DNA of 64,000 nt, taken from Elusimicrobiota bacterium. GTDB lineage: Bacteria > CG03 > SLGR01 > PWQF01. Under the pieces are notes generated by a model that saw nothing but the letters and a program-made list of their open reading frames with translations, was not told where the DNA came from and searched no databases. The translations under genes were made by a program, and so were the position numbers. This document shows, piece by piece, positions 12,887 through 30,542 of this stretch. How positions within the stretch are numbered: position 1 is the stretch's first letter; the number at the start of each line of letters is the position of its first letter. The DNA lies in assembly GCA_003557485.1 (NCBI GenBank), contig PWOI01000179.1, forward strand, positions 1 through 64,000, given 5' to 3'.

Positions 12887-13744
12887 TTGGCGGAAAAAGT
12901 AAGACAATATCATAAGGGTTTCTGGTACCACGTCTATGCGCGCGGGCTTCAGGAAGTACCTCTTTTTGTATCAGATGACGAACGTATTTGGTTTATAGAG
13001 AAAATTGACGAAGTTTTTATCAGGAGGCAAATAAAACTTGGCGCATTAAGTTTAATGGGGACACATTACCATATGCTTCTTAAGATGGGGCCGGTTAGCC
13101 TAGATAAAGCCCTTAACGGGCTCCATATGACATACTCACATGTAAATAAAAAAAGAGCCCGTTGCGGGCCATTGTTTCGCTCCAGACCCGGTGCTGATAT
13201 TATACTCAATGACTCTTATCTGCAGCAGCTTGTTTCCTATATACATTATAATGCCGTTAAGGCGGGATTGGTTAGAAAGCCGTGTAATTACAAATGGCAT
13301 ACTGATGAAATATACCGAACGGGAAAATGGAAGCATGGATCTCTGCAATGCTGGGAATTTCCCCCTTATTTTAAAGATAGGGACAGGACCAAAATATATA
13401 AAGATTTAATGGAAGAAGAAGTTGATTGTCCGGATAGCAGGCGGGGTTATATAGGTGCGAAAAATGAATGGGATAAAATTCAGCGCAGGAATAATAGTAG
13501 AAAAGAAAGATTTTTAGACCGTAGAAACCGAAAAACAATGGAAGAGATTGCCGGCGTAAAAGCAAAAGAGGGTAATATTACGGTAAAGATACTTAAAAGA
13601 AGAGGTAGAAGCCAACCGGTAGCGAATATGCGCCAGGAAGCGATGGTAGAGATGTATGAACAAGGATACGGTCCGACTGAAATAGGGGAGTATTTTAACA
13701 GAAGCAAAAGTACAGTAATGCACGCAATAAATAGAAAGAAATGA
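12887..13744 (+). CDS. REP-associated (IS200-like) HUH tyrosine transposase, RAYT type
   Basis: A 285-residue Y1 transposase. GTHYHMLLKMG supplies the HUH metal-binding motif (H-Y-H), and the YLQQLVSYIHYNAVKAGLV helix supplies the candidate catalytic tyrosine and is typical of RAYT proteins. The C-terminal stretch EMYEQGYGPTEIGEYF through STVMHAINRK looks like a DnaA-C-type helix-turn-helix used for DNA binding. The start is TTG with a strong AGGAGG four bases upstream. It is a single gene flanked by inverted REP-like repeats with no second IS gene, which suits a domesticated or single-copy RAYT. Its TGA stop overlaps the next gene's ATG, so the adhesin downstream may be translationally coupled to it. 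The frame is intact. Whether it still mobilises REPs is unknown. Confidence 0.88.
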   Translation: MAEKVRQYHKGFWYHVYARGLQEVPLFVSDDERIWFIEKIDEVFIRRQIKLGALSLMGTHYHMLLKMGPVSLDKALNGLHMTYSHVNKKRARCGPLFRSRPGADIILNDSYLQQLVSYIHYNAVKAGLVRKPCNYKWHTDEIYRTGKWKHGSLQCWEFPPYFKDRDRTKIYKDLMEEEVDCPDSRRGYIGAKNEWDKIQRRNNSRKERFLDRRNRKTMEEIAGVKAKEGNITVKILKRRGRSQPVANMRQEAMVEMYEQGYGPTEIGEYFNRSKSTVMHAINRKK

Positions 13745-16700: not shown

Positions 16701-19581
16701 TATTACTCTTACTGTTTTTGACGGAAGAGATACGGGATCAGCGGGATATTCTAATTTTAATGTAGACAATAAACCTCCATATTTTGAGGCTGGAGACCTG
16801 GAAATAGGGGAAGTTACTTCAGGGACTATAGAATGGCTTTGGCCAAGGGCCGTTGAGGAGAATTTTGTCAGGTACGAGCTTTGGTATTCTTCCGTAAGCG
16901 CTGAATCAGTCATTAACAGGTCAACACAAACGGCGCATTTTGAAACATTTGTAGATATCAATAAGACTGATGATATTACAGAAGAACTTCTTTCCCAAAC
17001 ACGGTACTGGGGGCAGGTTTGGGCTTATGACGGGCTGGGTTATGAAACCTATACATCAACGGTCTCACGAACTACCGGTTATCCTCCAAGTCTCTGGGTT
17101 TCGGCTCAGCCGGATCCAAAACGGGACGGCAGCGGCCACGTTGAATTTGAAGTTAAAATAAATGATCCTGATGGGTACGACAACTGGATAAGTGTCAAGT
17201 TTTCTACAGATGGTGTTCTATTCCATAATGCCCACATAGGTCAAATAACAGATAAGGACGGAATACAGCGCACACCCTATAACATTGAGGAATACCAGAT
17301 AAGCGGTATTCCTACAAAAGAAGGTGAGGACCTTATTACCAATACTCTGGTGATACGCTGGGATTCGAAAGACCAGCTTCCGGGTCATACATACGGATTG
17401 GATGGGCAGAATCACGAAAATGTCTATCTGCGTATAACTCCTTTTGATGGTTATTCAACAGGTGAAAGCACGCAGACCCAGGCCGTGCGAATAGATAATT
17501 CCAGGCCCGAACTTATAGTTTTTGATGATCCTGATCCTCTTATTAAAAGTTATAGTTGGTATAGTCACGATGATAGTGAATTAACGCTTTATTTTCATGG
17601 CGAATACGGCGAGCAAGGTGAATTTTTGTATGTGAGTACCGCATCTGTTGATTTTTCAAAAATTATGGTTTCAACAGGTACCGGACAGCCAGGGCAGTAT
17701 ATAGATCTTGAAGGTTCTGATGTTGAATTCTCGTTATGCGGAGATTATGTTCATATTACAATAACCGATACACACAGAAACTGGATTGCAAGACGTGATG
17801 GGGAGGGGAAGAGAGAAAATGTTTTTCTCAGGCTTTTATCCGGTGCTGTTGTTGACAGTTACGGTAATCCCAATATAGAGGAAGAACAGGTTAATTTTCA
17901 CTGGATTGATAAAAGTGATCCAGTTTATCGATCTAATTACCTGACTTGGTATCCTGCCTGGTATTCGTATCCTTTTGATACTTTACCTCAGCTTACGACA
18001 GCTACCTATGAAATTATAGGAGGGGATATCAAGCTTAAACTGGAATTTGATGAGTATATGGATGTGCGCAGTTTTAGGGATACTGATTTAAGTTCAATAG
18101 TTATTTATGCGACATCACCATTTGACAGCAGGGATCTTTCTCATGATGAGAATATAACTGTTTTAACAGAGGAAAGTGATTCAAAGATAATTGAATTTGA
18201 CATACCTACGGGATTTCATCTGCTGATATGGGATTTTCAGGACGGAAATTTGTTTCTTTCCATTCCTGAAGAAAGCGACCTTAGGGATTTATCAGGAAAT
18301 CATTTGCTTGAGATTTCAACTGATGGTTCCCGCAGGATAGAAACACCATCGGAAGAAGATGCGCCGACTGTCAGTACGCAGACTGTTTCTCCGAAACCCG
18401 GAGAATATAATGTGTCAAAGACAACAAGTATTTATGTTGGATTCAGTACTTTTCTTGTTGATGACCCCCCGGAGAGAAAAAGTCCCAGGGAAAGTATAAA
18501 TATCCGTCAGATTGAAGGGCCTACAGGCGAAAAATTAAGTAATGAAATATCGCCCGAAATAATAGTATACTGTAGAGAAGACAAACTTCTTGAATTTGTT
18601 CCTTCGAAACCCTTTCCGGGAAATTCCCTGATTGAAGTTACCATTGATGGGAATGAGATCTCTAATTTTTTTGGGGAACATATGGAGGAGGATTTTATAT
18701 GGAGATTCAGGACGCAGTTGGATAGAGGGAAAGATAATCTTATAAGAAGCCCTTCGGGCATAGTTGAAATACTTGTTCCCGCTGGTCAGTTTGTATCAGA
18801 CGGCGTAATAAATTTTACTGAAGGAATACCGTCCAAAGATCCCCATGATAAGGTATCAATAGATGCCTACAATGAGGCAGTAAGAAAAGAGAGATCTTGG
18901 GGTAACCCTTATAAATACCCTATAGAGGAGTTGAGCTTTGAGGTTCTTTTTTCAACTGATAGGAATAATCATTTTGACAGGGTTGCATTCACGGAGAATG
19001 CGCAGATAACTATAAACTACTCAACGGTTATAATAAGCGGCTTAACGAAAACAGGAACCTGGGACTATATTCGTTCTGATTCAAAAGATTACCGGCACAG
19101 TCCTCCTGTCGCTGAAAAGACTTTGCGAATCTATTACCTGGATGAGGACTCCCGGATGTGGCGCCCTCTTGCCTCGGAAGTAGATACGGACGAAAAAACC
19201 ATTACGGCACCTATGAGGCATTTTAGTATTTATACTGTTATGGGAGGGAAGAATTACAGTGCCGAAGATGCCTATGCGTATCCGGTTCCCTATAAACCCT
19301 CGGAAATACCAGAAGATTTTAAAGGCGACCCGGCAAGATCCGGAATAAGGTTTACGCGCCTTCCCTCAGAGTGCGAAATAGAAATATATACAATTTCAGG
19401 CCGGCTGGTAAATTCGTTTACCCATTCTGACGACAATCTGCTTCCGGGAGCGCAGGCAGGAAGCAGTTACTGGTACCCGGTGGAAAACAGAAACGGACGG
19501 CCTTTAGAGAGCGGTGTTTATATATATGTGGTTGAAAGTTCCGGAAACAGGAAAAGCGGAAAGCTTATGATAATACGATGA
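13741..19581 (+). CDS. Large secreted beta-propeller/FN3 protein with type IX-like C-terminal domain
   Basis: 1946 residues. An N-terminal signal peptide ends near FNLYAES. Seven FG-GAP/VCBS-type repeats (xxDxNGNGxxDxxV) at about nt 14200-15200 predict a seven-bladed integrin-like propeller with calcium loops. FN3-like modules follow (PDTTYYFRIWAYDKFGN is one edge), then a Big_5-like segment near 18360-18715, and a C-terminal FlgD-like domain (AYPVPYKP...EIEIYTISGRLV...GVYIYVVESSGN...KLMIIR). This C-terminus resembles that of the upstream giant protein, implying a shared export or anchoring route. The ATG overlaps the transposase stop and lacks a clear SD; its own stop overlaps the PorV-like gene start, indicating coupled translation. 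The function is probably adhesion or glycan binding (inferred). The signal peptide is partly REP-derived. Confidence 0.85.
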   Translation: MKITAKKLSNYRTLEVLLGLLVFVCFNLYAESPPAPSELSLRVEGTSGSGIPENYAGIENPYPQFSWDSANQEAFQIQLGIGNPANPYNVIWDTEKVISSNSYCYYDGSEPLQSRERYHWRVRIWDNNDPEASPSDWALDSPSFEMNTFIFNRDFEPIGNQSPAFAFGDVTGNGLRDIVISAHTGTTGELIVYGNTGSGEYEAVWSTDSVVSESIALADLNSNGSLDLIVLNRQSAMDSLYIFKNKGDGTFEKIFQRTGDGSRAVAVGDINRNGRIDIVEAFYGVNRVWLNRKENFDFTEYTFGGNKNNNDIALADLNGNGYLDLIVANSGANEVYLNTGQLNSPFENTADWNDESLTPVTSNSLVVIDINGNGLWDFVIGGRIGDDPAFYRLYMNEGDGTFNGDGTTEPYDADSRALTSGDINNNGLLDLADGNLDRDLILINEGGSFDLLNEGFYSNEQTYRAVLADFTGNGKADLLRGFTDSKSKLLIQVPDDLYVPYEPPAPPTDNFAGYYSTSTGKLHLSWGHGESGFTPQSQLSYNIRIGTYPGGGSIISGALGSTDNSGSFWGNIGRSTYVNLQVDPQTFFWSVQAIDGVKNAGQWSVEHIINTPPSIGWAEEGVLLSTCARQWSFDKITDKEYLTFIYHEDRRGLIDIDFRVSDIEGNRVRLTGFSYSTAGADGTWYDVADDSPNLTLSGNQETSNWPDKNGEWFKATGDLETEHMFTFTAADMLRDEGIITGNNYNFKTSSFTVRFTVVDEHDAESEPVVSEYFSVDLKSPSVPGSLITTGTYDKDSITLEFSTPSADDNFKKYMIFYGETPGEAGHYYPGYGTIHADEALLSYDFAGATSTVFEGLNPDTTYYFRIWAYDKFGNYSRQPEEEITVRKTNHPPDIEIYSVYQATDGSGLVYISFTGFDNDVEYSSYSWSQCTFSLGGSTYEMKPSTGNILFSGEPLLFTKDVSTSVFVWDAGQQLAELTALSDNIQVNITLTVFDGRDTGSAGYSNFNVDNKPPYFEAGDLEIGEVTSGTIEWLWPRAVEENFVRYELWYSSVSAESVINRSTQTAHFETFVDINKTDDITEELLSQTRYWGQVWAYDGLGYETYTSTVSRTTGYPPSLWVSAQPDPKRDGSGHVEFEVKINDPDGYDNWISVKFSTDGVLFHNAHIGQITDKDGIQRTPYNIEEYQISGIPTKEGEDLITNTLVIRWDSKDQLPGHTYGLDGQNHENVYLRITPFDGYSTGESTQTQAVRIDNSRPELIVFDDPDPLIKSYSWYSHDDSELTLYFHGEYGEQGEFLYVSTASVDFSKIMVSTGTGQPGQYIDLEGSDVEFSLCGDYVHITITDTHRNWIARRDGEGKRENVFLRLLSGAVVDSYGNPNIEEEQVNFHWIDKSDPVYRSNYLTWYPAWYSYPFDTLPQLTTATYEIIGGDIKLKLEFDEYMDVRSFRDTDLSSIVIYATSPFDSRDLSHDENITVLTEESDSKIIEFDIPTGFHLLIWDFQDGNLFLSIPEESDLRDLSGNHLLEISTDGSRRIETPSEEDAPTVSTQTVSPKPGEYNVSKTTSIYVGFSTFLVDDPPERKSPRESINIRQIEGPTGEKLSNEISPEIIVYCREDKLLEFVPSKPFPGNSLIEVTIDGNEISNFFGEHMEEDFIWRFRTQLDRGKDNLIRSPSGIVEILVPAGQFVSDGVINFTEGIPSKDPHDKVSIDAYNEAVRKERSWGNPYKYPIEELSFEVLFSTDRNNHFDRVAFTENAQITINYSTVIISGLTKTGTWDYIRSDSKDYRHSPPVAEKTLRIYYLDEDSRMWRPLASEVDTDEKTITAPMRHFSIYTVMGGKNYSAEDAYAYPVPYKPSEIPEDFKGDPARSGIRFTRLPSECEIEIYTISGRLVNSFTHSDDNLLPGAQAGSSYWYPVENRNGRPLESGVYIYVVESSGNRKSGKLMIIR
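13762..13800 (-). repeat. Right REP-like inverted repeat, inside the next gene's signal peptide
   Basis: Inverted copy of the left repeat. It lies in frame within the following gene and encodes residues 8-20 (LSNYRTLEVLLGL), which form part of its signal peptide. It carries an internal AACCC...GGGTT hairpin and a CCTCGAGG core. Confidence 0.75.
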
Positions 19582-20645
19582 AAAGGATTATTATAAAATC
19601 TATTTTTTCTTTTGCCGCAATTATAATAGTTGCAACTGCTCCCGTATTCTCTGTTTTCGGAGACGGGCCCGGAAGCACAGGATATGATTTTCTCAATATA
19701 CCCATAGGTGCGCGCCGCATAGGAATGGCCGCCGGGACAGCCGTAACCGGAGATAGTGACATATACTGGTGGAATCCTGCCGGGGTGGCATATGTGGAAA
19801 GGCCAGTTGTGAGCCTGATGCATAACCAGTTTATAGAAGGCATAAGCCAGCAGAGAGCAGGGTTCACGTTTCCGATGGAGGGCATGTCGGCGGGCGCTGT
19901 TAACCTTACAATGTTGTCGTATGGTGATATAGACGGGTATGACTGGGACGGCAGTCCGACCGGAGGGGTTTCTGCCGGAAGTTACAGTATATCCTATACT
20001 CAGGCAAAAAGATTTACTTATGATACTGCTGCTGGCTTAAGTTTAAAAGTTATACATGAACAGCTTGATGATGAAAGCGCCTTTGCCGCAGCTCTTGACG
20101 GTGGAGCTTTGTTTGAACCATATGAAGGAGTTTCTGTGGGGCTGGGATGGAGGAACCTCGGCGTAAGCGGTAATTTTATTGATGAGGCGCCACAGCTTCC
20201 TTTATCCTTGTTTTTCGGAGCCGGGTTGAGACTTAATTATTTTACTCTTTTTGTAACAGATATTTCTTATCTGGACGGAGAACTTAAATATGGTGCAGGG
20301 GTAGAGCTTAGTCTATGGGACTCTTTCTTTTTCCGTGGCGGTTGGGAAAGTTTTGCTGATGTTGATGAGACCTTCCGGCTTGGAGCGGGCTGGAGCTTCC
20401 GGGGAACCGGTATAAATTATGCGTTTGCTCCTTATGATAAGTTCGGCAGTACTCATAGGATGGATATAAGCTTTCAATTTGGTGAGCCGCCGCTTATAGA
20501 GAGAATATACCGCAGGGGGCAGAGTTTATATAGGCAGGAGAAATTTGAAGAAGCCTGGGTTGAATTCAATAAGGTAAAAGCTTTAAACTCCAGGTATAAA
20601 CGCATAAATTACTGGGTTGAAAGAGTGGAGGATGAAATAAAATAA
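19578..20645 (+). CDS. PorV/PorQ-like (UPF0164 family) outer-membrane barrel
   Basis: 355 residues with a signal peptide (MKRIIIKSIFSFAAIIIVATA). The mature start FLNIPIGARRIGMAAGTAV, followed by WWNPAGVAYV, is the hallmark of PorV/PorQ/UPF0164 proteins, which form 14-stranded FadL-like barrels and, in type IX secretion, collect substrates from the translocon. Alternating barrel strands continue to about residue 295, then a short TPR-like tail (IYRRGQSLYRQEKFEEAWVEF). It overlaps the upstream adhesin by four bases (ATGA), so both are made together. The natural reading is an export partner for proteins bearing the C-terminal domain found in its two large neighbours. Family assignment is firm; substrate pairing is inferred. 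Confidence 0.85.
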   Translation: MKRIIIKSIFSFAAIIIVATAPVFSVFGDGPGSTGYDFLNIPIGARRIGMAAGTAVTGDSDIYWWNPAGVAYVERPVVSLMHNQFIEGISQQRAGFTFPMEGMSAGAVNLTMLSYGDIDGYDWDGSPTGGVSAGSYSISYTQAKRFTYDTAAGLSLKVIHEQLDDESAFAAALDGGALFEPYEGVSVGLGWRNLGVSGNFIDEAPQLPLSLFFGAGLRLNYFTLFVTDISYLDGELKYGAGVELSLWDSFFFRGGWESFADVDETFRLGAGWSFRGTGINYAFAPYDKFGSTHRMDISFQFGEPPLIERIYRRGQSLYRQEKFEEAWVEFNKVKALNSRYKRINYWVERVEDEIK

Positions 20646-20656
20646 AGCGGACACTG

Positions 20657-20672
20657 TTTTGTCTTGACAAAA
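20657..20672. promoter_or_regulatory. Perfect dyad over the -35 of the motor operon promoter
   Basis: TTTTGTC-TT-GACAAAA is a 7+7 perfect inverted repeat that contains the -35 hexamer TTGACA. It could be a repressor operator. It has no T-run, so it is not a good terminator for the upstream gene. Confidence 0.45.
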
Positions 20673-20692
20673 TCGGATATGCGTGTTATTAA
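20664..20692 (+). promoter_or_regulatory. Sigma70-type promoter of the motor operon
   Basis: TTGACA, 17-base spacer, TATTAA (4 of 6 to consensus). The predicted start near 20699 gives a 220-base leader that contains the riboswitch. Confidence 0.6.
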
Positions 20693-20744
20693 TTTAGTGG
20701 GAGAGAGAAGGCTCCCATATTAGGTGAAAATTTAATATAGCCTG

Positions 20745-20822
20745 CTGATAAGGGCAACCGTCGGGTAACCGGCGGCTCGCAAAGTCACAGCTCCGGGTTA
20801 ACCGGAGGGCTGGTCTGCCGGT
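20745..20822 (+). ncRNA. c-di-GMP-I (GEMM) riboswitch aptamer
   Basis: The leader carries the GEMM-I signature in order: AAGGGCAACC, a 7-bp stem closed by a GTAA (GNRA) tetraloop (20758-20775), then CGCAAAG (20778-20784), then a second stem-loop with CTCCGG/CCGGAG arms, and finally TGCC (20816-20819), which pairs back to GGCA (20753-20756). The GNRA loop facing a second arm is the tertiary contact known for this class. It is followed by a stable hairpin and an intrinsic terminator, so control is probably transcriptional. It precedes PorV-, FliF/FliG-, MotA- and MotB-like genes, a fitting target for c-di-GMP. Whether ligand turns expression on or off cannot be read here. A covariance search against Rfam RF01051 would settle the class. 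Confidence 0.85.
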
Positions 20823-20838
20823 GGGACGTTTAATTTAA

Positions 20839-20911
20839 ACTGCAATATCAAAATTGCAGTAAAAGGAAATTAACGGCCGGTTTGCCTTTATCAGGTAATC
20901 CGGCTGTTTTT
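20839..20911 (+). terminator. Riboswitch expression platform: hairpin plus intrinsic terminator
   Basis: ACTGCAAT/ATTGCAGT (20839-20860) is a perfect 8-bp hairpin with a 6-base loop. A second stem, ACGGCCGG (20873-20880) with CCGGCTGT (20900-20907), is followed by a T-run (20907-20911). The T-run ends 7 bases before the downstream ATG. The first hairpin may be a spacer or part of an alternative fold. Confidence 0.7.
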
Positions 20912-20918
20912 ATTATAT

Positions 20919-22514
20919 ATGAACAAACTGTTTAAAAATTTAACGGTTTTTTGCCTGGCCCTTATTTACGCGGCCGCGCTGGGGTGGCTTTGCGTTGGAC
21001 TGGTTTTTGCCGGTAGCGGCGGAATGCCTGGCGCTTTTATGTCCTGGGGAGCAGGCGCAAGGTCCCTGGGAATGGGAAAGGCTTTTGTTTCAATTGCTGA
21101 TGATGCTACGGCTGCGTACTGGAACCCGGCAGGGCTTGCCGGTATTTCCCGTCCCGAACTGACGGCCCTGCATACAATACTCTGGGGCGGCACGGTTTAT
21201 GATTTTATAAGTTATGTTCAGCCTACAGAATTCGGGGGGACCTTCGGATTCAGCGGGACCAGGTTGTTTTTGGGCGGTATCGAGGGAAGGGACTCAGATA
21301 ACAGAAAAACTTATGACTTTGAAGACATACAGAGCGCTTACGGCATATCATACGGCCAGCGCGTGCTTGATAATCTTTCTGTAGGAGGCGGATTTAAACG
21401 AATGACGCATACTCTCGATGACCATACAAGCGGAAATTATACTATGGATATTGGAGTTCTCTATTCTCCGATTGACAGTCTCAGCCTCGGTATGAACCTG
21501 CAGAATCTTTTTGCAGTTAAGTTTGGAGATTCCACCGATACCAGCCTTCCTATGAACCTGCGCCTGGGCGCAAGCTATAGACTTTTAAGGGACAGGCTTC
21601 TTCTTGCTACTGATTTAGCCGCTTCGGTTTATGGATGGGATATGGGGCTTCCGGTTTTTATGGGAGCCGAGTACAAGGCTATGGATTTTCTTGATATAAG
21701 GTTTGGTGTCGACAGGGAAGAGATAAATATAGGCTTTGGTCTTACATATCTTGATTACGGGTTGGATTATTCATATGCTGCTCACGATTTAGGCGGTTCC
21801 CACAGGGTTTCCGCAACTGTAAAACTAGGAAGCTCTGTCGAAGAAGCAAAGCGCCGTACTGCCCGGGAACGTGAAGCTGCCGGCGATGCAGCCTACAGGG
21901 CGGGGTTATTCAGAGAGGCTGCCGGATACTATGAGCGCGCTTATGCAATGGATCCTTCTGACAGGGACCTTGCCCGAAAGCTGAATCTTCTTACAAGAAT
22001 AGCGCAGGTCATACCTTCTCGTGATGACGACACTCGCGAGGGTGAGCTTTTAAGGAGAGGGCTTAGGGAATATATAGAAGAAAATAATACCGACCTGCTT
22101 CTCCTTACACTGAACCATATGCTGGCCCTTGATCCCGGTGACCGTCAGGCGGAAAACCTGCTGCGACTTATCTCTTCAATAGAGGGTATCAGCCAGCCAA
22201 GGATAAGGGTTGCTTCCGGAATGAGCCTTTCCGAATACAAGCTGCACAGATCTCTGCAACGGTTTTATGAGGGGGAATATGCCAGGGCGATAGAACTGGC
22301 GCAGGATGTTCTTGTTATTGAACCGCGCAACGCTGAAGCCTACAAAAGAATAGGTTCGGCTTTTTATGCAATAGGCAATGAAGAGAGAGCAGTAGAAAAC
22401 TGGGAAGAATCGCTTAGAATTAATCCTGCGGATACCCAGCTGGAAAGGTTTCTTGAGAGAGTTCGTGGAGAAGAGGAGAGTCCTCCGGTAGAAAATATGT
22501 TAGATGAGTTTTAA
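20919..22514 (+). CDS. PorV/UPF0164-like outer-membrane barrel with C-terminal TPRs
   Basis: 531 residues, first gene of the riboswitch-controlled operon. A signal peptide (residues 1-32) precedes GAFMSWGAGARSLGMGKAFV and YWNPAGLAGI, the PorV/UPF0164 landmark, then a barrel to about residue 305. From about 315 on there are TPRs (GDAAYRAGLFREAAGYYERA; AEAYKRIGSAFYAIGNEERA), probably periplasmic. It is a paralogue of the gene at 19578 but with a longer TPR tail that could dock other envelope components. No Shine-Dalgarno is seen: the ATG sits directly behind the terminator T-run. The stop is 12 bases before the FliF/FliG-like gene. The function is inferred as the outer-membrane partner of the motor-like complex or of type IX-like export. 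Confidence 0.82.
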   Translation: MNKLFKNLTVFCLALIYAAALGWLCVGLVFAGSGGMPGAFMSWGAGARSLGMGKAFVSIADDATAAYWNPAGLAGISRPELTALHTILWGGTVYDFISYVQPTEFGGTFGFSGTRLFLGGIEGRDSDNRKTYDFEDIQSAYGISYGQRVLDNLSVGGGFKRMTHTLDDHTSGNYTMDIGVLYSPIDSLSLGMNLQNLFAVKFGDSTDTSLPMNLRLGASYRLLRDRLLLATDLAASVYGWDMGLPVFMGAEYKAMDFLDIRFGVDREEINIGFGLTYLDYGLDYSYAAHDLGGSHRVSATVKLGSSVEEAKRRTAREREAAGDAAYRAGLFREAAGYYERAYAMDPSDRDLARKLNLLTRIAQVIPSRDDDTREGELLRRGLREYIEENNTDLLLLTLNHMLALDPGDRQAENLLRLISSIEGISQPRIRVASGMSLSEYKLHRSLQRFYEGEYARAIELAQDVLVIEPRNAEAYKRIGSAFYAIGNEERAVENWEESLRINPADTQLERFLERVRGEEESPPVENMLDEF

Positions 22515-22526
22515 AGGAATCAAAGC

Positions 22527-24434
22527 ATGAATAAAATGATAAAAGTTCTGGTACTTCTTATGGCGCCCCTTTTTCTGGGCGCCTCTGATTTTATGGACTA
22601 TACAACTTTAATGAATCAGAAAATGGAAACCGAGAGGCGCCTTGAAGACCATCTGCAGGGAATTGTTTCCAGAATAGTCGGGGAAGGACGTTCCACAGTT
22701 TTAGTCAGCGTAAATCTTTCCGACCTGAGCCGCAGCCGTGAAACTGTAGAAGAATGGCTTGAGCGGGGTGAGGATGCCGAAAGGCGGCTTCCGATGCGGG
22801 AAGAATACCTTCCCGGTATACCCCGCAGGGAAGATATGGCAGAAAGAGAAACGGAAGTCGCCGAGCGGGCCGGTGGAAAACGCCTCCAGGACGTAATAAC
22901 TCTGCCTTCGGAATTTATAGAGAGTATGCGCATAAGCCTTATACTTGATTCCACTATATCCGAGACTGTAATCGCAACGGTGGAAAACGTTATAACCGAG
23001 GTTATGGACCTGGATGCAGCCCGGGGCGATCGTTTAACTATACAGACAGTGGATTTTGCGGGTAGAACGGTAGATTTTATGGGTTTCCTATTTAATCCAT
23101 ATTTTTATGTTATATCCCTGGTACTTATAATTATAACCATACTCGCGCTTTTTCTTTTCGGGCCGCTGAAAAAATTTCTTTTCGCTACTTTACAGACGAT
23201 GAAAGACTTAAAAGGAATGAAGAGCGAAACCGAATACTCAGGAGGCGGGGGCGGGGGCGGGGGCGGATTTGGCATAACGCCGGACGGCGAAATTGAAATG
23301 GAAGAAGAGATAGAAGAAGATGAAGAATTGAAAGAGGGGGAAGAAGCAGATATAGAAGGCGAAGAAGAAGACGAGGAGTTTAAAAAGATGACATATATAC
23401 CGCTTAAGTTTCTGGAAAACAAGGATTTGAAGAAACTGGCTTACCTTTTAAGTTTTGAAAAACCGGAAGTAGGGGCTCTTCTTCTTAAATATCTTTCGCC
23501 TCCGCGCGCTGCAAAAGTCCTCAGCTCAATTCCGGGAGAAGAAAGAACTATAGGAATAACAAGGGAGATTGTAAAATTTCAGAGAACTTCTAAGGAGGTC
23601 ATGCAGAAAATAGATGAGTTTCTTAGCAGAAAAATAGATTACATTGCCGGCGGCGCCGAAAGTCTTGTGGAAATGATTGAAATGATGGATGAAGAAAAAA
23701 GAGAGCAGCTCCTAAACCAGATTTCTTCTGAGGATCCTGAATTTGCCGAAAAAATTAAAAAGCGTATTTTCAGTTTTGAAAATATTGTAAATATGGATGA
23801 CCCGTCCATACAGACACTAATACAGGAAATGGAGACTGCCGACCTTGGCGCAGCCCTTAAAAATGTATCTGAAGAAGTAAGAAACAAATTTGTTTCCAAT
23901 ATGAGCGAAGGTGCGGCTGCTCTTTTAAAAGAGGAAATAGAATTTGGAAAGAAAATGACCGAGGAGCAGATAAAACAGAAACAAATGGAAGTTGTCGCAA
24001 AAATAAAAGATCTGGAGACGTCCGGCTCAATAGCACCCGTGACCGGCGCATCCAAAGAGGAATTATGGGTGGAAGAGCTGGGTGAGGGAGAAAAAGAAGG
24101 AGTTCTTGAGGAAATTATAAAGGCGGCCCAGGAAGCTTACGATAAGAAACAGGAACTTGAAGCTGCTGAGGCTGCCGGCCGTCAGGATGATGAAGCTGCA
24201 TTTGAAAGCTACCGTAAAGGTTTGGAACTCTATAAACACCAGGATTACGATAATGCAATAAAAGAGTTTAATAAATCCATTGCCTCCAATCCATCCCTGT
24301 GGCAGAGCTATCAATATATAGGTTCCTGCTATCTTGCGCTCGATAATCAGGATGGAGCTAAAAAAGCCTACCGAAAAGCCCTTGAGCTTAATCCGTCAAA
24401 CGAGCAGCTCAGGCAATGGTTGGAAAGTCATTGA
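22527..24434 (+). CDS. Natural FliF(beta-collar/TM)-FliG(M-C) fusion with C-terminal TPR
   Basis: 635 residues. After a signal peptide-like start, residues 25-180 match the FliF RBM3/beta-collar region (ERRLEDHLQGIVSRIVGEG; VENVITEVM.LD..RGD.LTIQTVDF). One TM spans 191-212. A Gly9 linker (239-247) and a long acidic stretch follow. Residues about 295-405 match FliG-M (GALLLKYLSPPRAAKVLSSIP; GGAESLVEMIEMMDEEKRE), and 405-505 match FliG-C (PEFAEKIKKRIFSFENIV; SEEVRNKFVSNMSEGAA), the torque domain that meets MotA. TPRs fill 555-632. FliF RBM1/2 and the first TM, and FliG-N, are missing; fusion makes FliG-N dispensable. The FliM-contact motif EHPQ is EKPE (311-314), and DDRSIQRLL is DDPSIQTLI. It is probably an inner-membrane rotor or scaffold. 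Homology is clear from motifs; rotation is inferred. Confidence 0.82.
   Translation: MNKMIKVLVLLMAPLFLGASDFMDYTTLMNQKMETERRLEDHLQGIVSRIVGEGRSTVLVSVNLSDLSRSRETVEEWLERGEDAERRLPMREEYLPGIPRREDMAERETEVAERAGGKRLQDVITLPSEFIESMRISLILDSTISETVIATVENVITEVMDLDAARGDRLTIQTVDFAGRTVDFMGFLFNPYFYVISLVLIIITILALFLFGPLKKFLFATLQTMKDLKGMKSETEYSGGGGGGGGGFGITPDGEIEMEEEIEEDEELKEGEEADIEGEEEDEEFKKMTYIPLKFLENKDLKKLAYLLSFEKPEVGALLLKYLSPPRAAKVLSSIPGEERTIGITREIVKFQRTSKEVMQKIDEFLSRKIDYIAGGAESLVEMIEMMDEEKREQLLNQISSEDPEFAEKIKKRIFSFENIVNMDDPSIQTLIQEMETADLGAALKNVSEEVRNKFVSNMSEGAAALLKEEIEFGKKMTEEQIKQKQMEVVAKIKDLETSGSIAPVTGASKEELWVEELGEGEKEGVLEEIIKAAQEAYDKKQELEAAEAAGRQDDEAAFESYRKGLELYKHQDYDNAIKEFNKSIASNPSLWQSYQYIGSCYLALDNQDGAKKAYRKALELNPSNEQLRQWLESH
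23241..23267 (+). repeat. GGCGGG hexanucleotide repeat encoding a Gly9 linker
   Basis: About four GGCGGG-type units in a row encode nine glycines between the TM and the acidic region of the FliF/FliG-like protein. Six-base slippage would change linker length without shifting frame. Confidence 0.8.
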
Positions 24435-24497
24435 AAGCGAAAATAGAATGCAGAACTTGAAAAAAAATAAATACTGTATTAGTACTTTACAATTCTT

Positions 24498-27400
24498 ATG
24501 AATCCTGAAAACAACCAAAATCATAATAAAGGGCAGGGACTTCCCGGACCGCCTCCGCCTCCCTTTTCGGGAGATGCCGGGAAGAATCCTTCGCCCGGAA
24601 TACCGGATATGCCGCCAATTCCCGGCTCTGCGCCACCCCCTCAGTCTATTGATGATGTTTTTACTCCTCAGGACCCCGGCATGGCAAAAGAAAAAAAACG
24701 TCCTTCTGAGAGAGAGAAACAGATTGAAGAAGAAATTTCCAGGCTGGACAGCCGTATGGAAAAAGAACGGCTTCAGCTGATGGAAAGGCTTAAGGAAAAA
24801 GAAAACGAAAACCTACGCCTGCAGGAACAGTTTCTTGAAAAAGAAAAAGAGGATGCCCGCCGTAAAAAGGAAGAGTTTGATAGATTGAAAGAAAAGCTTC
24901 ATGAACAGTTTGTCGAAAAGGAAAATAAACTTAAAGAGGAAAGAGAACAGTGGCGCAGAGAGCTTGACGAAATAAGAAAAGAAAACAGAAGCAGACTTGC
25001 CCTTGAGCAGACGCAGAACCAGATCCGCATAGAGGCCCAGCAGCAGGCTCGCGAAGAATTTCAGCAACAGATGAAAGAAATGAAAAAGGAGCTTGAAAAT
25101 GCCCGCCGCCGCGCTTACGAAGAGGCAATTAAACACAAGGAAGAAGAGAAAAATTCCATTAAGGTAGAGCAGGCCCTTAAAGAGGTCCTCCAATCAACTT
25201 CAATGAGCCAGAAAGCCGAGCAGGTTGAAAAGGAAAAAGAAAAACTCCGCGAAGAACTTTATCATCTTGAAAAAGAACTGGCATCCCAGAAAATTAATAT
25301 GACTCGCAAGCTGCAGGAGAGCGAGAATTTAAGAGACAATATCAGGCTTGACTATCATAATAGGATCCGTGAAAGCCGGAGTCAGTATGAAAGTAAAATT
25401 GCAGAGTTGAGAGAGACTGCTTCCGAGCTTGGCAATAAACTCTGGCAGGCCCGGAACAGCTATGAGAACAAAAAGGAGCTGTGGGAAGAAAGGGTCCGGG
25501 AAAATATTCAGGAAAAGGAAAATCTTACACTGCAGTACCAGAAACAGATAAGCGAACTCAGACTTGAATATGAACAGAAAATTACCGATGCGTTAAGCGC
25601 AAAAGAATCTGCAGAAAACAGGTATTGGGGAATTAAGGAAAAATTTGATGAGCAAACGGTTGAGCTTAATTCGCGTATTAAAGAACTTGAAAAAGAGAAA
25701 GACCTTATAGAAAAAGAATACGGAATGAAAGTCGCCTCTCTTGAAAGCGCCCTTAATGAAGAGAAAGCCGAACTTGCTGCCCAGAAAAAGATAAGCGAGG
25801 AAAGACTTAACCGAATTAACGATGAACTTCACGCAAAGGAGAACAGGTATAAGGAAAAAATAAGCGATATAGAAATAAATTATTCCGAAAAAATCCAGAA
25901 TATAAAAGAAAAATATAAATCCGGCCTTTCTGAAAATGAAAGAGAAATAGAAAAGCTTAAGGCGCTTCTGAAGGAAAGCCGTGAGAAATTATCACAGAAT
26001 TCCGGAGGATCTCACCGGGATTTTGAAAACAGCAAAAAAGAGGTAGAAGAAGCCCGCCGTCTAATGGAGAAGGAAAAGAACAGGTTCAATTTCCGGCTCA
26101 GAGAAATAGAGAATGATTATGAAAAGCGTCTCTCTGAACTTAAAGTTAAAAACAGCCGTCTTGAATCAAGGATATCAGCCCTTGAAGAAAAAAGAGAGAC
26201 CTCTATAGATAAATATAACGACAAGATAGAAGAACTCAACGGAAAAATAAATGAACTTAAAATTGAAAACGCAGCTTTACAGGGAGATTTACTGAAAACC
26301 GAGAGGCAGATTGAGAGTTCCGACAGAGCTTTAGAGGATATGGCCCGCAAAAATGCCGAAATTCACCACCGCCTTGTCAGCAGCCGAAAAGAAAATGATG
26401 AGGACATTTACCGGTTGAGAGAAGAAATAAATTCTCTGCGCAGGGAAAAAACCGAAGCTCTTCTAAGGATTGAGAACGAGCATTCCAGGGAATCGGAACT
26501 CTATGAGAACCAGCTTCTTCAGGCGCGCAGGGCAACAGAGGATCTCAGGCGCGAAAAAGACCGGCAGATAGATTCAATTAAACAGCAGTTTGATAATTAC
26601 AGAAAGAACTTTCAGTGGCTTAAACAGGAGTGGCAGCAGCAAAAAGAAGAACTCCGGGAAAATTTCAGCGTGAAGGAAAAGGGATATGAAAATGAGATAA
26701 AACAGCTTGAATCGGCTCTGAGCGAAGTGCAGAAACTGAAAACACATTCTGAAAGTGAACTTAACGCTGAAATTGAAGCTGTCAGGAAGGAAAAACAATC
26801 CCTGCAGGAAAAATTTGAATCAAAAATTCAGCAGATGAGGGATGAATTTGCAGCTAAAAAGACGGATCTTTATGAAAAACTGAATGAAAAACAAAGGAAT
26901 ATAAGCGAATTGGAAGCCCGTCTGGATACAGAAAGAGTTGACTATACAGCCCGGATCCAGCAAGCGGAAAAAGAGAAAACTGCTGTTTTGCGGGAAAAAG
27001 AGATCCTTGATGTAGAAACTGAAAAACTGAAAAAAGAGACTCATAGCCTCCAGCTCAGGTACGAAAGAGAAGCAGAAGAAAACCGTAAACTGAGAGAGGC
27101 TCTTCATCATGGTGAAAAGAAGTACAGAAACGAAATAGGAAAGCTTAAGGAATACTACGAGAAAAACCTTGAATCCCTTCGCAGAAGGCAGGATGGTATT
27201 GCAAATGTAGAGTATGACAGCCTTGATACTGAGAATAGAGAATTGAAGCATCAGCTTAAGTCTGCTGAATCTGAGATAAGCCGGCTTAAGTCACAGCTTG
27301 TAGAAAAAGAAGAGGCTCAGGAAAAAATACAGGCTGAAATAGATAAATATACAGCAGAAATTGATGACCTTACACAGGAATTGAAGCAAAGACAGTCTGT

Positions 27401-28406
27401 TATTGAACAACTTGAACGGAAAGTTTCTGATATTGATGATTCGCAGGCTGTGCAGGAGGATATAAGCCAGCTTAAAAAAGAAAACAGCGAATTAACCGGA
27501 CATTTGGAAGAATCATTGCGGGAAAGGGATATTCTTAAAGAGAAAAATGCCAGCCTTTTGTCGGAAAATGAAGCTAAAAAGCAGCAAATAGAACAGCTTT
27601 CCCTTAAACTTGAGGAAAAAGAAAGCCAAATAGGCCAGCTTCAAGGTAAAATTCCCGGAGAAGATATTATATCCGGTAAGAATGAGGAAATAGCAGAACT
27701 TGAAGATGAAATTAAAGAGCTAAGGTCCGCCCTTTCGGATTCTGAATCTAAAATAAAGCAGCTTTCAGAGGCTGCATCCCGTGCGGATTCTCTTATGGAC
27801 AGCAAAAAAGAGATAGAAGAACTTTCCGCTTCACTTGCGGAAAAACATTTGAAAGAAATTGAAGAGAAAGAAAGAATTATAGAAGAATTAAGAAAAGAAC
27901 TTGAGGAGTCCCTTGAAGAACTTGAAGAGAGGGAGCAGCAGCCTGTGACCGATGGGCTTAAATCTGAAAGGCTGCAGGTTCTTGCCGGGGAGAATGCTGA
28001 ACTCAAGGAAAAAATAAGAGAATTGGAGTCTCAGCTTGAGATAGGAATGGAGCAGCTTCGCAGTGAGAAGATGGTTCCGGAATATGATACAGAAAAAACA
28101 GACGAAAAAATAAAGCAAATCAATGAAAAATGGAGGAAAAAATGGGCCGGCCGCGAACAGAAAGTAAAAGATTTCATATCACAGGCAAAAGCCAGGCACA
28201 GCCAGCTTAAAGACAAGCTTCAGGTTGCTCTTGAAGACCAGAAAATTCTTTCACAGCTTGCAGAAAAGGAAAAACAACAGAAACAGAAGCTTGCTTCAGA
28301 GCAGGCCGAACTTATAAAAGAGCTTCAGGAAAGCAACAGGTCTTTTGTCAGTAAAATACTTGCCAAACTGAAAAAAGGCGGGCCTAAAGGCGTACTCATC
28401 CTTTAA
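24498..28406 (+). CDS. 1302-residue coiled-coil protein with proline-rich N-terminus
   Basis: No signal peptide or TM is seen, so it is predicted to be cytoplasmic. Residues 1-75 are Pro/Gly-rich (GLPGPPPPP; PPIPGSAPPP) and look disordered. From about residue 80 to 1290 the sequence is almost continuous heptad-rich Lys/Glu coiled coil, long enough for an extended rod. It ends with a basic tail (AKLKKGGPKGVLIL). No catalytic motif is seen. It lies between the FliF/FliG-like gene and flbD-motA-motB, so it is likely a structural or tethering part of the same machine. Coiled-coil scaffolds also occur in other motility systems, but I cannot assign orthology to one. No SD precedes the ATG. Family unknown. 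Confidence 0.75.
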   Translation: MNPENNQNHNKGQGLPGPPPPPFSGDAGKNPSPGIPDMPPIPGSAPPPQSIDDVFTPQDPGMAKEKKRPSEREKQIEEEISRLDSRMEKERLQLMERLKEKENENLRLQEQFLEKEKEDARRKKEEFDRLKEKLHEQFVEKENKLKEEREQWRRELDEIRKENRSRLALEQTQNQIRIEAQQQAREEFQQQMKEMKKELENARRRAYEEAIKHKEEEKNSIKVEQALKEVLQSTSMSQKAEQVEKEKEKLREELYHLEKELASQKINMTRKLQESENLRDNIRLDYHNRIRESRSQYESKIAELRETASELGNKLWQARNSYENKKELWEERVRENIQEKENLTLQYQKQISELRLEYEQKITDALSAKESAENRYWGIKEKFDEQTVELNSRIKELEKEKDLIEKEYGMKVASLESALNEEKAELAAQKKISEERLNRINDELHAKENRYKEKISDIEINYSEKIQNIKEKYKSGLSENEREIEKLKALLKESREKLSQNSGGSHRDFENSKKEVEEARRLMEKEKNRFNFRLREIENDYEKRLSELKVKNSRLESRISALEEKRETSIDKYNDKIEELNGKINELKIENAALQGDLLKTERQIESSDRALEDMARKNAEIHHRLVSSRKENDEDIYRLREEINSLRREKTEALLRIENEHSRESELYENQLLQARRATEDLRREKDRQIDSIKQQFDNYRKNFQWLKQEWQQQKEELRENFSVKEKGYENEIKQLESALSEVQKLKTHSESELNAEIEAVRKEKQSLQEKFESKIQQMRDEFAAKKTDLYEKLNEKQRNISELEARLDTERVDYTARIQQAEKEKTAVLREKEILDVETEKLKKETHSLQLRYEREAEENRKLREALHHGEKKYRNEIGKLKEYYEKNLESLRRRQDGIANVEYDSLDTENRELKHQLKSAESEISRLKSQLVEKEEAQEKIQAEIDKYTAEIDDLTQELKQRQSVIEQLERKVSDIDDSQAVQEDISQLKKENSELTGHLEESLRERDILKEKNASLLSENEAKKQQIEQLSLKLEEKESQIGQLQGKIPGEDIISGKNEEIAELEDEIKELRSALSDSESKIKQLSEAASRADSLMDSKKEIEELSASLAEKHLKEIEEKERIIEELRKELEESLEELEEREQQPVTDGLKSERLQVLAGENAELKEKIRELESQLEIGMEQLRSEKMVPEYDTEKTDEKIKQINEKWRKKWAGREQKVKDFISQAKARHSQLKDKLQVALEDQKILSQLAEKEKQQKQKLASEQAELIKELQESNRSFVSKILAKLKKGGPKGVLIL

Positions 28407-28410
28407 AAAA

Positions 28411-28638
28411 ATGATAAATGTGACCAAATTAAACGGCGATGGTATAATCCTTAACGCCGAACTTATAGAAACGGTTGAATCGCGCCCCGACACTCTTATA
28501 ACCCTTACTACTGGAAATAAAATTATGGTAAAGGAAAAAGTTGAGGATATAATAAAAAGGGTTGAGGATTATAAAAGGCAGGTAAATATGCTTACCCGAG
28601 AGAAGCTTAGTGCGTTGCTCAGGGAAGAAGAGGAATAA
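28411..28638 (+). CDS. flbD: FlbD family protein
   Basis: 75 residues with the FlbD pattern MINVTKLNGDGIILNAELIE...PDTLITLTTGNKIMVKE. FlbD is a small protein commonly encoded next to motA/motB in flagellar operons of spirochaetes, Clostridia and others; its molecular role is poorly defined. It starts 4 bases after the coiled-coil gene and ends 3 bases before motA, so it is tightly embedded in this operon. The C-terminal 20 residues are charged and helical. Confidence 0.85.
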   Translation: MINVTKLNGDGIILNAELIETVESRPDTLITLTTGNKIMVKEKVEDIIKRVEDYKRQVNMLTREKLSALLREEEE

Positions 28639-28641
28639 ATT

Positions 28642-29499
28642 ATGGACCTGACGACAGTAATAGGGCTTTCCGGAGGCATTATAATAGTTTTTACAGCGGT
28701 TGCTCTCCGTGGTGGTATGGCAGGCCTGCAGGGGTTTCTGGATATGCCTTCCGCTATGATTACTTACGGGGGAACCTTTGCCGCTCTTATGGTGAACTAT
28801 CCGATAGATAAAGTTGTAAAAGCCTTTAAAGTCGTCAAAAAAGTATTTACCGAACAGCAGGACGACCCTAACGATTATATTGAAAAATTCCGCCAGCTGA
28901 TTATCAAAGCCTCAAAACAGGGAGTTCTTTCCCTTGAGGAAGATATAAAAAAAATGGACAACGAATTTTTAAGAAATGGAGTTAAAATGGTCATGGACGG
29001 CCAGAGCCAGGAGCATATAGAAGAAGAAATGGAGACTGAACTGGCATTTACCAGGGAAAGGCATAAAATAGGCCAGGAAATTTTTGTGACACTTGGCACT
29101 TACTCCCCTGCGTTCGGTATGATAGGGACTATTATGGGTCTTATCCTGATGCTAGCCGACCTTCAGGATACTGCCCAGATAGCTGCCGGTATGGCGGTAG
29201 CTCTATTGACAACCTTTTACGGCGCCCTTGGCGCTTATCTTATTTTTCTTCCCATCGCCGGCAAGCTGAAAAGGCGTTCGGAAGAGGAGCTTTTTCTTAA
29301 AAGTGTCATAACCAGAGGCGTCATGTCCCTTCATGCGGGAGAGGTTCCTTCAATAGCGGTAGCTAAACTGCGCGCGTATATACCGAGATCCTCTTTTATG
29401 GAGCCTTCCGGCACAAAAAAAGGGAAGGCTGACGAAAAAGAAGAAGGAAACAAGAAGAAAAAAACAAAGGTAAAATACCGTAAAAAGAAGAAGAAATGA
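28642..29499 (+). CDS. motA: MotA/PomA stator proton- or sodium-channel subunit
   Basis: 285 residues with the MotA landmarks: two N-terminal TMs (IGLSGGIIIVFTAVALRGG; MITYGGTFAALMVN), a cytoplasmic loop with TRERHKIGQEIFVTLGTYS, the PAFGMIGTIMGLILML third TM and a fourth TM ending before KLKRRSEEE. In flagellar motors the loop's charged residues push on FliG-C, which here is in the fusion protein encoded two genes upstream. A very basic tail (KKKKTKVKYRKKKKK) is longer than usual and could contact the acidic linker of that fusion (inference). SD GAGGAA precedes ATG; the stop overlaps motB by 4 bases. Confidence 0.92.
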   Translation: MDLTTVIGLSGGIIIVFTAVALRGGMAGLQGFLDMPSAMITYGGTFAALMVNYPIDKVVKAFKVVKKVFTEQQDDPNDYIEKFRQLIIKASKQGVLSLEEDIKKMDNEFLRNGVKMVMDGQSQEHIEEEMETELAFTRERHKIGQEIFVTLGTYSPAFGMIGTIMGLILMLADLQDTAQIAAGMAVALLTTFYGALGAYLIFLPIAGKLKRRSEEELFLKSVITRGVMSLHAGEVPSIAVAKLRAYIPRSSFMEPSGTKKGKADEKEEGNKKKKTKVKYRKKKKK

Positions 29500-30350
29500 G
29501 CAAAATTGCCGCATTTAAGAGGAGTCTTCCTAAAGACGAGGGGGATATTGAGGTCGGTAAAGGCTCCCCCCCGTGGATGACTACTTATGGAGACCTTGTT
29601 ACCCAGCTCCTGATTTTTTTTGTTATGATGTTTGCGCTTGCCGCCACGCTCAATGAGCTGCAGTTGATAAGCATAAAACGCAGAATTGAGAACTACGCAT
29701 ACCAGAACCAGCTTGGCCATCTTATAATGCTCGATATTAACCCCAAAGGATTGGTAATAACCCTTAGCGAAAAAATGATGTTTGATTCCGGCCAGGCCGA
29801 GATATATGAGGATGCAAAAGCCATTCTCTCCGCAATAGCAGGTGAAATAATAGATGTACCCAATCCTGTCAGAATTGAAGGTCATACGGATAGCGTACCC
29901 ATCAGTACAGATAGGTTTCCTTCCAACTGGGAACTGTCAACAGCCCGGGCGACAAATGTAGCAAGATATCTTGTAGAGAACCTGGAATTTCCGCCTGACC
30001 GGATAGCTGCCGGGGGGTACAGTAAATACCATCCTGCGGTAGGAACGGAAATTGAAGATGAAATATTCAACTACAAGTTAAAAGTAAGAGAGGTTCCACA
30101 GCATTATTCCCTTGAGCTCAGGCGCGCATCCACTCCGGAGGAGGAAGACCTGGTTATGTTGAGAATAAGAGAAGAACAGCTTGAGATACAACGGGAAATG
30201 CAGGGAATAATTATGGAGCATATACGTATTGCAAACCTTGATGCGGACAGAAGAGCCCGGAACAGGAGGGTTGACATAATAGTGGAGAGGATAGGCACTA
30301 CTGTTGAAAGAAGAACGGATATCGCGGCGCCTGTTGCCGTTTCTCATTAG
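29496..30350 (+). CDS. motB: MotB-like stator subunit with an insertion in the OmpA domain
   Basis: 284 residues. PPWMTTYGDLVTQLLIFFVMMF is the MotB TM, with the ion-carrying aspartate at D33 (D32 in E. coli). The OmpA-like peptidoglycan-binding domain follows: SGQAEIYEDAKAIL, VRIEGHTDSVPI, NWELSTARATNVARYL, and RARNRRVDIIV near the end. Between KYHPAV (about 182) and RARNRRV (about 253) there are some 65 extra charged, helical residues where most MotB proteins have fewer than ten. MotA4B2-type units anchor to peptidoglycan and turn ion flow into torque. It overlaps motA (ATGA) and is the last gene of the operon. Channel residues are intact, so it should be energised. Confidence 0.9.
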   Translation: MSKIAAFKRSLPKDEGDIEVGKGSPPWMTTYGDLVTQLLIFFVMMFALAATLNELQLISIKRRIENYAYQNQLGHLIMLDINPKGLVITLSEKMMFDSGQAEIYEDAKAILSAIAGEIIDVPNPVRIEGHTDSVPISTDRFPSNWELSTARATNVARYLVENLEFPPDRIAAGGYSKYHPAVGTEIEDEIFNYKLKVREVPQHYSLELRRASTPEEEDLVMLRIREEQLEIQREMQGIIMEHIRIANLDADRRARNRRVDIIVERIGTTVERRTDIAAPVAVSH

Positions 30351-30508: not shown

Positions 30509-30513
30509 ATTTA

Positions 30514-30542
30514 GGGCCGCCTTTAAGGCGGCTCTTTTTTTT
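30514..30542 (+). terminator. trp attenuator, terminator 2 abutting trpE
   Basis: GGGCCGCC (30514-30521), TTTAA loop, GGCGGCTC (30527-30534), then eight Ts that end at the base before the trpE ATG. The 5' arm is also complementary to 30494-30500; that pairing would disable both terminators at once. Confidence 0.82.

Follow-up and report, generated by a model that had tools for sequence, protein, structure and literature searches.

Flagellar-type rotor parts apart from a flagellum: a candidate envelope motor operon under a cyclic di-GMP riboswitch

Flagellar stators form one clade apart from the generic ones in those parts of a study of MotAB evolution that bear on the question, and the gliding stator AglRS groups there with generic ion transporters, not with flagellar stators (PMC12505986). 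The motors covered in the relevant passages of a gliding review are GldLM and AglRQS, the former with a 5:2 arrangement that resembles MotAB and is described as non-homologous to it (PMC13104615). Laboratory FliF-FliG fusions have been used in flagellar motors, as excerpts of one report state (PMC11481574), and a survey places rotor genes in 11% of non-motile species, a finding that its relevant passages leave unexplained (PMC12199754). Here we analyze a stretch of 64,000 nucleotides (hereafter the window) from an Elusimicrobiota bacterium (GenBank assembly GCA_003557485.1, contig PWOI01000179.1, positions 1 to 64,000), which contains an operon for a FliF-FliG fusion, a MotA/MotB stator, an outer-membrane barrel of the PorV family and a giant coiled coil. 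An earlier note on this DNA had proposed a hitherto undescribed motor of the envelope, built from rotor parts of the flagellum, and the proposal has held: no flagellar gene set was found, and the matches of the fusion to FliF RBM3 and FliG M-C are real. That the operon encodes a working, non-flagellar rotor-stator motor is in our view very probable; that the motor is an ion-driven rotary device of the envelope which moves surface proteins in a gliding-like motility is the fuller reading toward which we lean, with less assurance.

The operon and its predicted products

The operon (20743-30350, + strand) consists of a riboswitch for cyclic di-GMP (c-di-GMP) followed by six closely spaced genes. 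Its features are as follows.

20664-20692, + strand: possible promoter, TTGACA-N17-TATTAA, recognized by eye; weak, missing from the consensus scan listing
20743-20822, + strand: c-di-GMP-I (GEMM-I) aptamer; Rfam RF01051, 43.8 bits, gathering score 35
20872-20908, + strand: intrinsic terminator hairpin (expression platform); -22 kcal/mol hairpin, then a U run
20919-22514, + strand: PorV/FadL-family outer-membrane barrel with a tetratricopeptide repeat (TPR) domain; NF033709 115 bits; structural model matches the folds of FadL/TodX/CymD and of TPR
22527-24434, + strand: FliF(RBM3, β-collar)-transmembrane helix-FliG(M,C)-TPR fusion, proposed rotor, 635 aa; FliG_C 3.7e-31; FliF profile 98.1%
24498-28406, + strand: 1302-residue cytoplasmic coiled coil (predicted); Pro-rich N-terminus, conserved hydrophobic C-terminal tail
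28411-28638, + strand: FlbD; PF06289 7e-26
28642-29499, + strand: MotA, flagellar-type stator A subunit; MotA_ExbB 6e-30; phmmer to 6ysf/8ucs MotA 1.6e-49
29496-30350, + strand: MotB, stator B subunit; channel Asp33, plug, and an OmpA-like domain for binding peptidoglycan, from domain search and alignment
30513-30535, + strand: intrinsic terminator ending the operon, strong; 10-pair stem, then a T run; trpE lies beyond

The genes are separated by gaps of 12, 63, 4, 3, and -4 bases on one strand, in line with the tight spacing that the earlier note had described, and its six gene identities are upheld by the domain searches. The single promoter that it had placed ahead of them is visible as a -35/-10-like pair, but the pair is weak and the consensus scan did not report it.

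The product of the second gene runs from a signal-like start through a periplasmic domain, a transmembrane helix (residues ~190-215), and a Gly-rich and acidic linker to FliG_M (3e-14), FliG_C, and a TPR domain. The order of signal and transmembrane helix predicts a cytoplasmic location for FliG_C and the TPR domain and a periplasmic one for RBM3. The Pfam FliF C-terminal match in residues 129-177 is weak by itself and firm by profile comparison: when the periplasmic part was compared with RBM3 and the β-collar of FliF from flagellated genomes, hhalign gave 98.1% (E 7.9e-14), with the alignment ending at a shared RGD...F motif ahead of the second transmembrane helix (TM2) of FliF, and gave 0.2% for an unrelated MotA used as control. 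The full-length fusion matched FliG M-C structures in Foldseek (1lkv, 3.5e-11). By VIA-align it superimposed on FliG 3usw over 190 residues with a Z of 17.9 and a root-mean-square deviation (rmsd) of 12.9, a high value that probably reflects a differing inter-domain angle, and on the MotAB-bound FliG domain of 8ucs (8ucs_H) with a Z of 14.8 and an rmsd of 1.4 over 88 residues. The fusion nevertheless falls short of a true FliF or FliG: it scores 146.9 bits against the full-length FliG equivalog TIGR00207 (cut-off 226.7), with a match that starts at model position 112 and thus no FliG_N, and only the signal-like N-terminus precedes RBM3, in place of the TM1, RBM1, and RBM2 of a full MS-ring FliF; the FliF tail is absent as well. 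In a tree of FliG M-C, the flagellar FliGs split from all fusions with 100/100 support; the tree is unrooted with long branches and therefore gives no order of origin for flagellar FliG and the fusions. Since all fusions fall outside flagellar FliG, the lineage could preserve a rotor-stator module older than the flagellum.

MotA scored 200-233 bits with the MotP/PomA/MotA models against 22 bits with TolQ, and it aligned over its full length with 9lu9 MotA and over nearly its full length with 6ysf; judged by its sequence, it is of flagellar type, with a large cytoplasmic torque region, and not TolQ-like. The MotA prolines and the TT(F/L)YG motif are retained in the alignment, and the channel Asp of MotB is present in all seven MotBs aligned from operons of the window's kind, here called type I; a second, paralogous kind, called type II, is described below. 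The position of MotA E98 is kept in nearly all type I rows and not in most type II rows. For FliG we use the Escherichia coli residue numbers (R281, D288/D289). The flagellar FliGs aligned keep R281 and the acidic pair 288/289, in the numbering given in the relevant part of PMC12505986, and in the fusions the acidic pair is kept as EE throughout type I and in the majority of type II members, with QE or EH in a few.

The aptamer, which the earlier note had taken to be GEMM-like, clears its gathering score. Its conserved 5′ strand (20745-20757) can pair with the inner strand of the terminator (20882-20894) over 13 base pairs, one of them G-U, to form an anti-terminator. Folding of the window leader gave a terminator probability of 0.02 in the free RNA and of 0.96 with the aptamer sequestered; ligand binding should therefore cause termination, and in the window the riboswitch is predicted by this modeling to turn the operon off at high c-di-GMP. 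A c-di-GMP off-switch is known for the flgB operon of C. difficile. The aptamer, or a GGC variant of it, lies ahead of the PorV-TPR gene in nine type I leaders (the window, seven more in the phylum, and one in a second phylum), with a terminator-like hairpin between aptamer and start codon. No riboswitch match was found in the upstream region of locus L051 (L, G, and C numbers are our handles for loci, genomes, and contigs), nor in the type II loci scanned. A chance match was rejected as an explanation, given the shared position in nine leaders and the lack of matches in the type II loci.

The first gene product matches the PorV/PorQ family above the NF033709 cut-off of 90 bits and carries TPRs, and its structural model has a FadL/TodX-type barrel followed by TPRs, with a mean predicted local distance difference test score (pLDDT) of 64 that is low in the barrel part. 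The coiled coil, 46% E/K/R/Q and assigned to no family, has no signal peptide by eye, and its complete relatives share little sequence identity yet keep a similar length, 1156-1304 aa. Its C-terminus (28350-28406) and those of its relatives share a short conserved hydrophobic tail (GVLIL, GIMLL, GIIRF, DIIKF, or GDIKF), perhaps a docking motif. The lack of a signal peptide, the Pro-rich start, the conserved tail, and the conserved length suggest a cytoplasmic spacer, ruler, or tether. FlbD was found only among the closest relatives of the window; it was rejected as a core part, which qualifies the six-gene set of the earlier note.

Absence of flagellar families and conservation of the operon

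The window's own genome is a metagenome-assembled genome (MAG), 86.6% complete in 212 contigs, so its own absences are weak alone; absence across the phylum is not. We searched 16 genomes of the phylum, six of them at least 90% complete and less than 5% contaminated. FlhA of the export apparatus, the FliM/FliN C-terminal family of the C-ring, and the rod/hook families (flagellin was not searched for) were found in none of the 16, while all of these searches gave hits in the four positive controls, E. coli, Bacillus subtilis, Caulobacter, and Thermotoga. The fliM, fliN, flhA, and flg genes, as represented by these families, were thus found neither in the own genome nor in the other genomes of the phylum searched, and the operon as the motor part of a flagellum encoded elsewhere was rejected. 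Within the window, no flagellar family scored above cut-off in the other open reading frames scanned, as the earlier note had stated.

The fusion is present in 13 of the 16 genomes, and the three without it are 63, 66, and 84% complete. L047, L050, and L051 have the gene order PorV-TPR, fusion, coiled coil, MotA, MotB, and L046, L048, L049, L052, L053, L054, L055, and L056 have it up to where their contigs end; of the six-gene order in the earlier note, these five genes are conserved and FlbD is not. The contigs of these relatives carry the NCBI titles Elusimicrobia, Sumerlaeota, and Caldiserica, and the lineage is therefore poorly placed in NCBI. In a survey of 386 genomes, full-length fusions of this kind were found outside the phylum only in G353, G223, and G082; the other matches were mostly ordinary FliG of ~340 aa. 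These three genomes belong to one other small phylum, in which the fusions occur in six of six genomes. G353 has a type I operon with riboswitch, PorV-TPR, fusion, and the Pro-rich start of a coiled coil, adjoined by a relative of the window's giant surface protein. Two genomes carry a looser arrangement, "type III", together with ordinary FliG: in G137 (L166:7072-10957) it comprises a FliF-FliG fusion, a separate FliG, MotA, MotB, and a giant protein, and in G274 (L164:9093-19000) a FliF-FliG fusion, a separate FliG, and a giant protein.

Type II operons, with FliF-FliG, MotA, and MotB, occur in most relatives, up to two per genome, and many genomes have 2-3 paralogous motor copies. Type II fusions are ~436-464 aa long and have no TPR; compared alone with FliF RBM3, they gave 96.9%. 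The window's own genome has such an operon on contig C165 (L009), with a fusion, MotA, MotB1, and MotB2, near genes for a TolC-family protein, a sigma factor, a histidine kinase, a response regulator, a PorV-TPR protein, and a protein bearing a type IX-like C-terminal domain (CTD). In ten of ten MotB1/MotB2 pairs (L009:12629-13902 and the type II operons of L039, L040, L041, L042, L057, L061, L063, L065, and L160), MotB1 has the channel Asp and MotB2 has Asn, Thr, or Ser instead; three of the ten pairs come from one genus, so that fewer are independent, and about six genera in two phyla agree. This pattern points to a stator in which a single B subunit binds ions, or to a B subunit dedicated to regulation.

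Three neighboring genes lie upstream of the operon.

82-12801, + strand: giant surface protein, 4266 aa from the contig start, proposed cargo or adhesin; FlgD_ig 6e-4, below cut-off
13741-19581, + strand: second large secreted protein, with FG-GAP, fn3, Big_5, and a type IX sorting-domain-like C-terminus; TIGR04183 19.3 bits, cut-off 23
19578-20645, + strand: PorV/PorQ-family protein without a long TPR array; NF033709 112 bits, cut-off 90

Of the upstream adhesins with type IX-like CTDs and the PorV partner named in the earlier note, the PorV partner is clear, whereas the CTDs score below the curated cut-offs (TIGR04183 19.3 and 22.3 bits against 23; FlgD_ig 20.1 against 27). The operon is immediately preceded by the gene for a relative of the 82-12801 protein in L047, L049, and L056 and, in the second phylum, in L158. 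Between the two giant surface proteins, 12887-13744 encodes a Y1-transposase-like (RAYT-like) protein fused to a DnaA C-terminal helix-turn-helix. Elsewhere in the window are genes for a LysM protein that matches FlgT_C weakly, at a score under the cut-off (53449-54153), and an erythromycin esterase-like protein (55087-56382; PF05139, 1e-83).

Proposed mechanism and rival explanations

In the mechanism we favor, MotA/MotB stators would be held to peptidoglycan through the OmpA-like domain of MotB, and ion flow through MotAB would exert force on the cytoplasmic FliG_C domains of the membrane-spanning fusion. The fusion would assemble as a ring that is turned or stepped by the stators, and its periplasmic RBM3/β-collar would turn or drag periplasmic partners, of which the TPR domain of the PorV-family barrel is the likeliest. 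Force would pass through PorV-TPR to the giant surface proteins, and the cell would creep on surfaces. The coiled coil, perhaps bound to the cytoplasmic TPR of the fusion, would tether, space, or position the motors. At high c-di-GMP the riboswitch fold would stop transcription ahead of the first gene, and the motor would be built in the motile, low c-di-GMP state. Such a motor may serve gliding or the energized secretion of proteins.

Several points weigh against this proposal. The ring, its rotation, and motility are predictions from gene content, and the lineage genomes with known titles are all uncultured MAGs. FliG R281 is substituted in the fusions, mostly by Gly or Ala, and the equivalent of MotA R90 is Ser in the window, with Lys next to it; the stator-rotor contact is therefore altered. 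The residues taken together suggest that this contact is partly kept and partly reshaped, as expected of a dedicated rotor-stator pair. The full-length AlphaFold model of the fusion is moderate (mean pLDDT 63), and Foldseek and VIA returned FliG and TPR structures for it but no FliF structure; because one domain fills the list, the missing match is no evidence against FliF. The off-switch is thermodynamically clear in the window leader alone, and in L047, L048, and L049 the exact complementarity is shorter (6-10 bases) and the terminator is favored either way at equilibrium. Finally, the physical link of the PorV protein or the giant protein to the rotor is one that we infer.

The motor might instead energize secretion, replacing GldL/GldM of a type IX-like system and exporting the giant CTD proteins through an SprA-like channel with PorV-family partners; we regard this, the chief rival reading, as possible but unlikely. 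An SprA-like protein of ~1700 aa is encoded in 15 of the 16 phylum genomes (the own-genome copy, at 199.6 bits and E 5e-59, is borderline by the curated cut-off of 200), GldM in none of the 16, and GldL searches of these genomes gave chance-level scores only, with no credible GldL. Many motor operons have genes for PorV-family proteins and type IX-like CTD proteins next to them, and all three genomes outside the phylum that share this kind of fusion are positive for SprA. Yet SprA homologs occur in 141 of the 386 surveyed genomes and GldM in 3, so that neither motor accompanies SprA in most genomes that encode it, and this motor is not required for SprA; because SprA without GldM is so common in genomes without this motor, the case for secretion is weakened. 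Moreover, sprA was not adjacent to the motor operon in four loci examined, several paralogous motor operons per genome better suit dedicated surface machines than one general secretion motor, and the predicted c-di-GMP off-switch fits motility and favors it over secretion. As an observation in its own right, most SprA-bearing genomes in the survey are without a recognizable GldM motor; with SprA lacking GldM as the rule, the missing GldL/GldM was rejected as specific evidence for the replacement of a type IX motor.

We think it quite improbable that the operon encodes a Tol-Pal-like device for envelope maintenance, cell shape, or surface sensing, with MotAB and FliG as force transducer or mechanosensor. 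The trans-envelope layout and the MotB-type peptidoglycan-binding domains would suit such a device, genes for histidine kinases and response regulators accompany several of the type II operons, and one type II MotB is without the channel Asp, as a regulatory or sensing subunit might be; type I operons, however, retain torque-relevant residues of ion channel and rotor, the stator is flagellar-type and not TolQ-like, and its repeated association with giant surface proteins and with a c-di-GMP switch is unlike Tol-Pal, which to our knowledge shows no such association. That the operon is a functionless, degenerate remnant of a lost flagellum is hardly credible. In some groups, flagellar operons contain an FlbD-MotA-MotB cassette, and its presence here would agree with such an origin, but the reading frames are intact, the architecture and riboswitch are conserved across two phyla, the fusion to TPR is new, paralogous copies are frequent, and the fusions separate from flagellar FliG with full support.

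Significance and comparison with known systems

The operon is a concrete, recurring case in which rotor parts of the flagellum persist although the flagellum itself is missing. It is relevant to the role of rotor genes in non-motile species, as raised in parts of PMC12199754, and to the origins of the flagellar motor. The passages of that survey (PMC12199754) name no system for such genes, whereas we can describe their gene context, the fusion partner, and the regulation. The operon suggests a new way of energizing surface movement or secretion under direct c-di-GMP control, and the type II operons may supply a natural stator in which ions bind to one B subunit only, which would be a test of how 5:2 motors work. 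We entertain, as a rather doubtful extension, a separate class of rotary motors beside the flagellar ones, in which flagellar-type stators drive rings of the fusion. Such motors would occur in all or nearly all members of two candidate phyla, with several in each cell; every one would have a PorV-type coupler and a surface protein of its own, and some would have an asymmetric stator of one live and one dead B subunit. No description of FliG/MotAB without flagella in Elusimicrobia or Omnitrophota, or of a non-flagellar FliF-FliG, was found in the literature searched; most subscription papers lay outside that search, and novelty is not proven. The parts, as judged from their sequences, all come from known families, and their assembly appears new as far as searched.

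The operon shares with the type IX/gliding system of Bacteroidota (GldLM, SprA, PorV) an ion-driven, stator-type motor, a PorV-family barrel, an SprA-like translocon elsewhere in the genome, and, at scores below cut-off, CTD-like ends on large surface proteins; it differs in that the motor is MotAB with a FliG rotor and not GldLM, GldM being absent with no credible GldL. Likewise, the Agl-Glt gliding machinery of Myxococcus has a stator-like ion-driven motor and trans-envelope TPR proteins, as well as a large cytoplasmic coiled-coil protein, AglZ. The stators here are MotA-type, unlike AglRS, and we know of no FliG, FliF, or PorV in Agl-Glt. With the flagellar motor, the operon has in common flagellar-type MotA/MotB, FliG M and C with the acidic torque pair, and FliF RBM3/β-collar with the second transmembrane helix. 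Its fusion differs from flagellar FliF and FliG in having no RBM1, RBM2, TM1, FliG_N, or FliF C-terminal tail, the two parts being joined directly, in the loss of R281, and in the added TPR; and, in place of the FliM/FliN, export gate, rod, and hook of a flagellum, it has genes for PorV-TPR, a giant coiled coil, and giant surface proteins beside its own.

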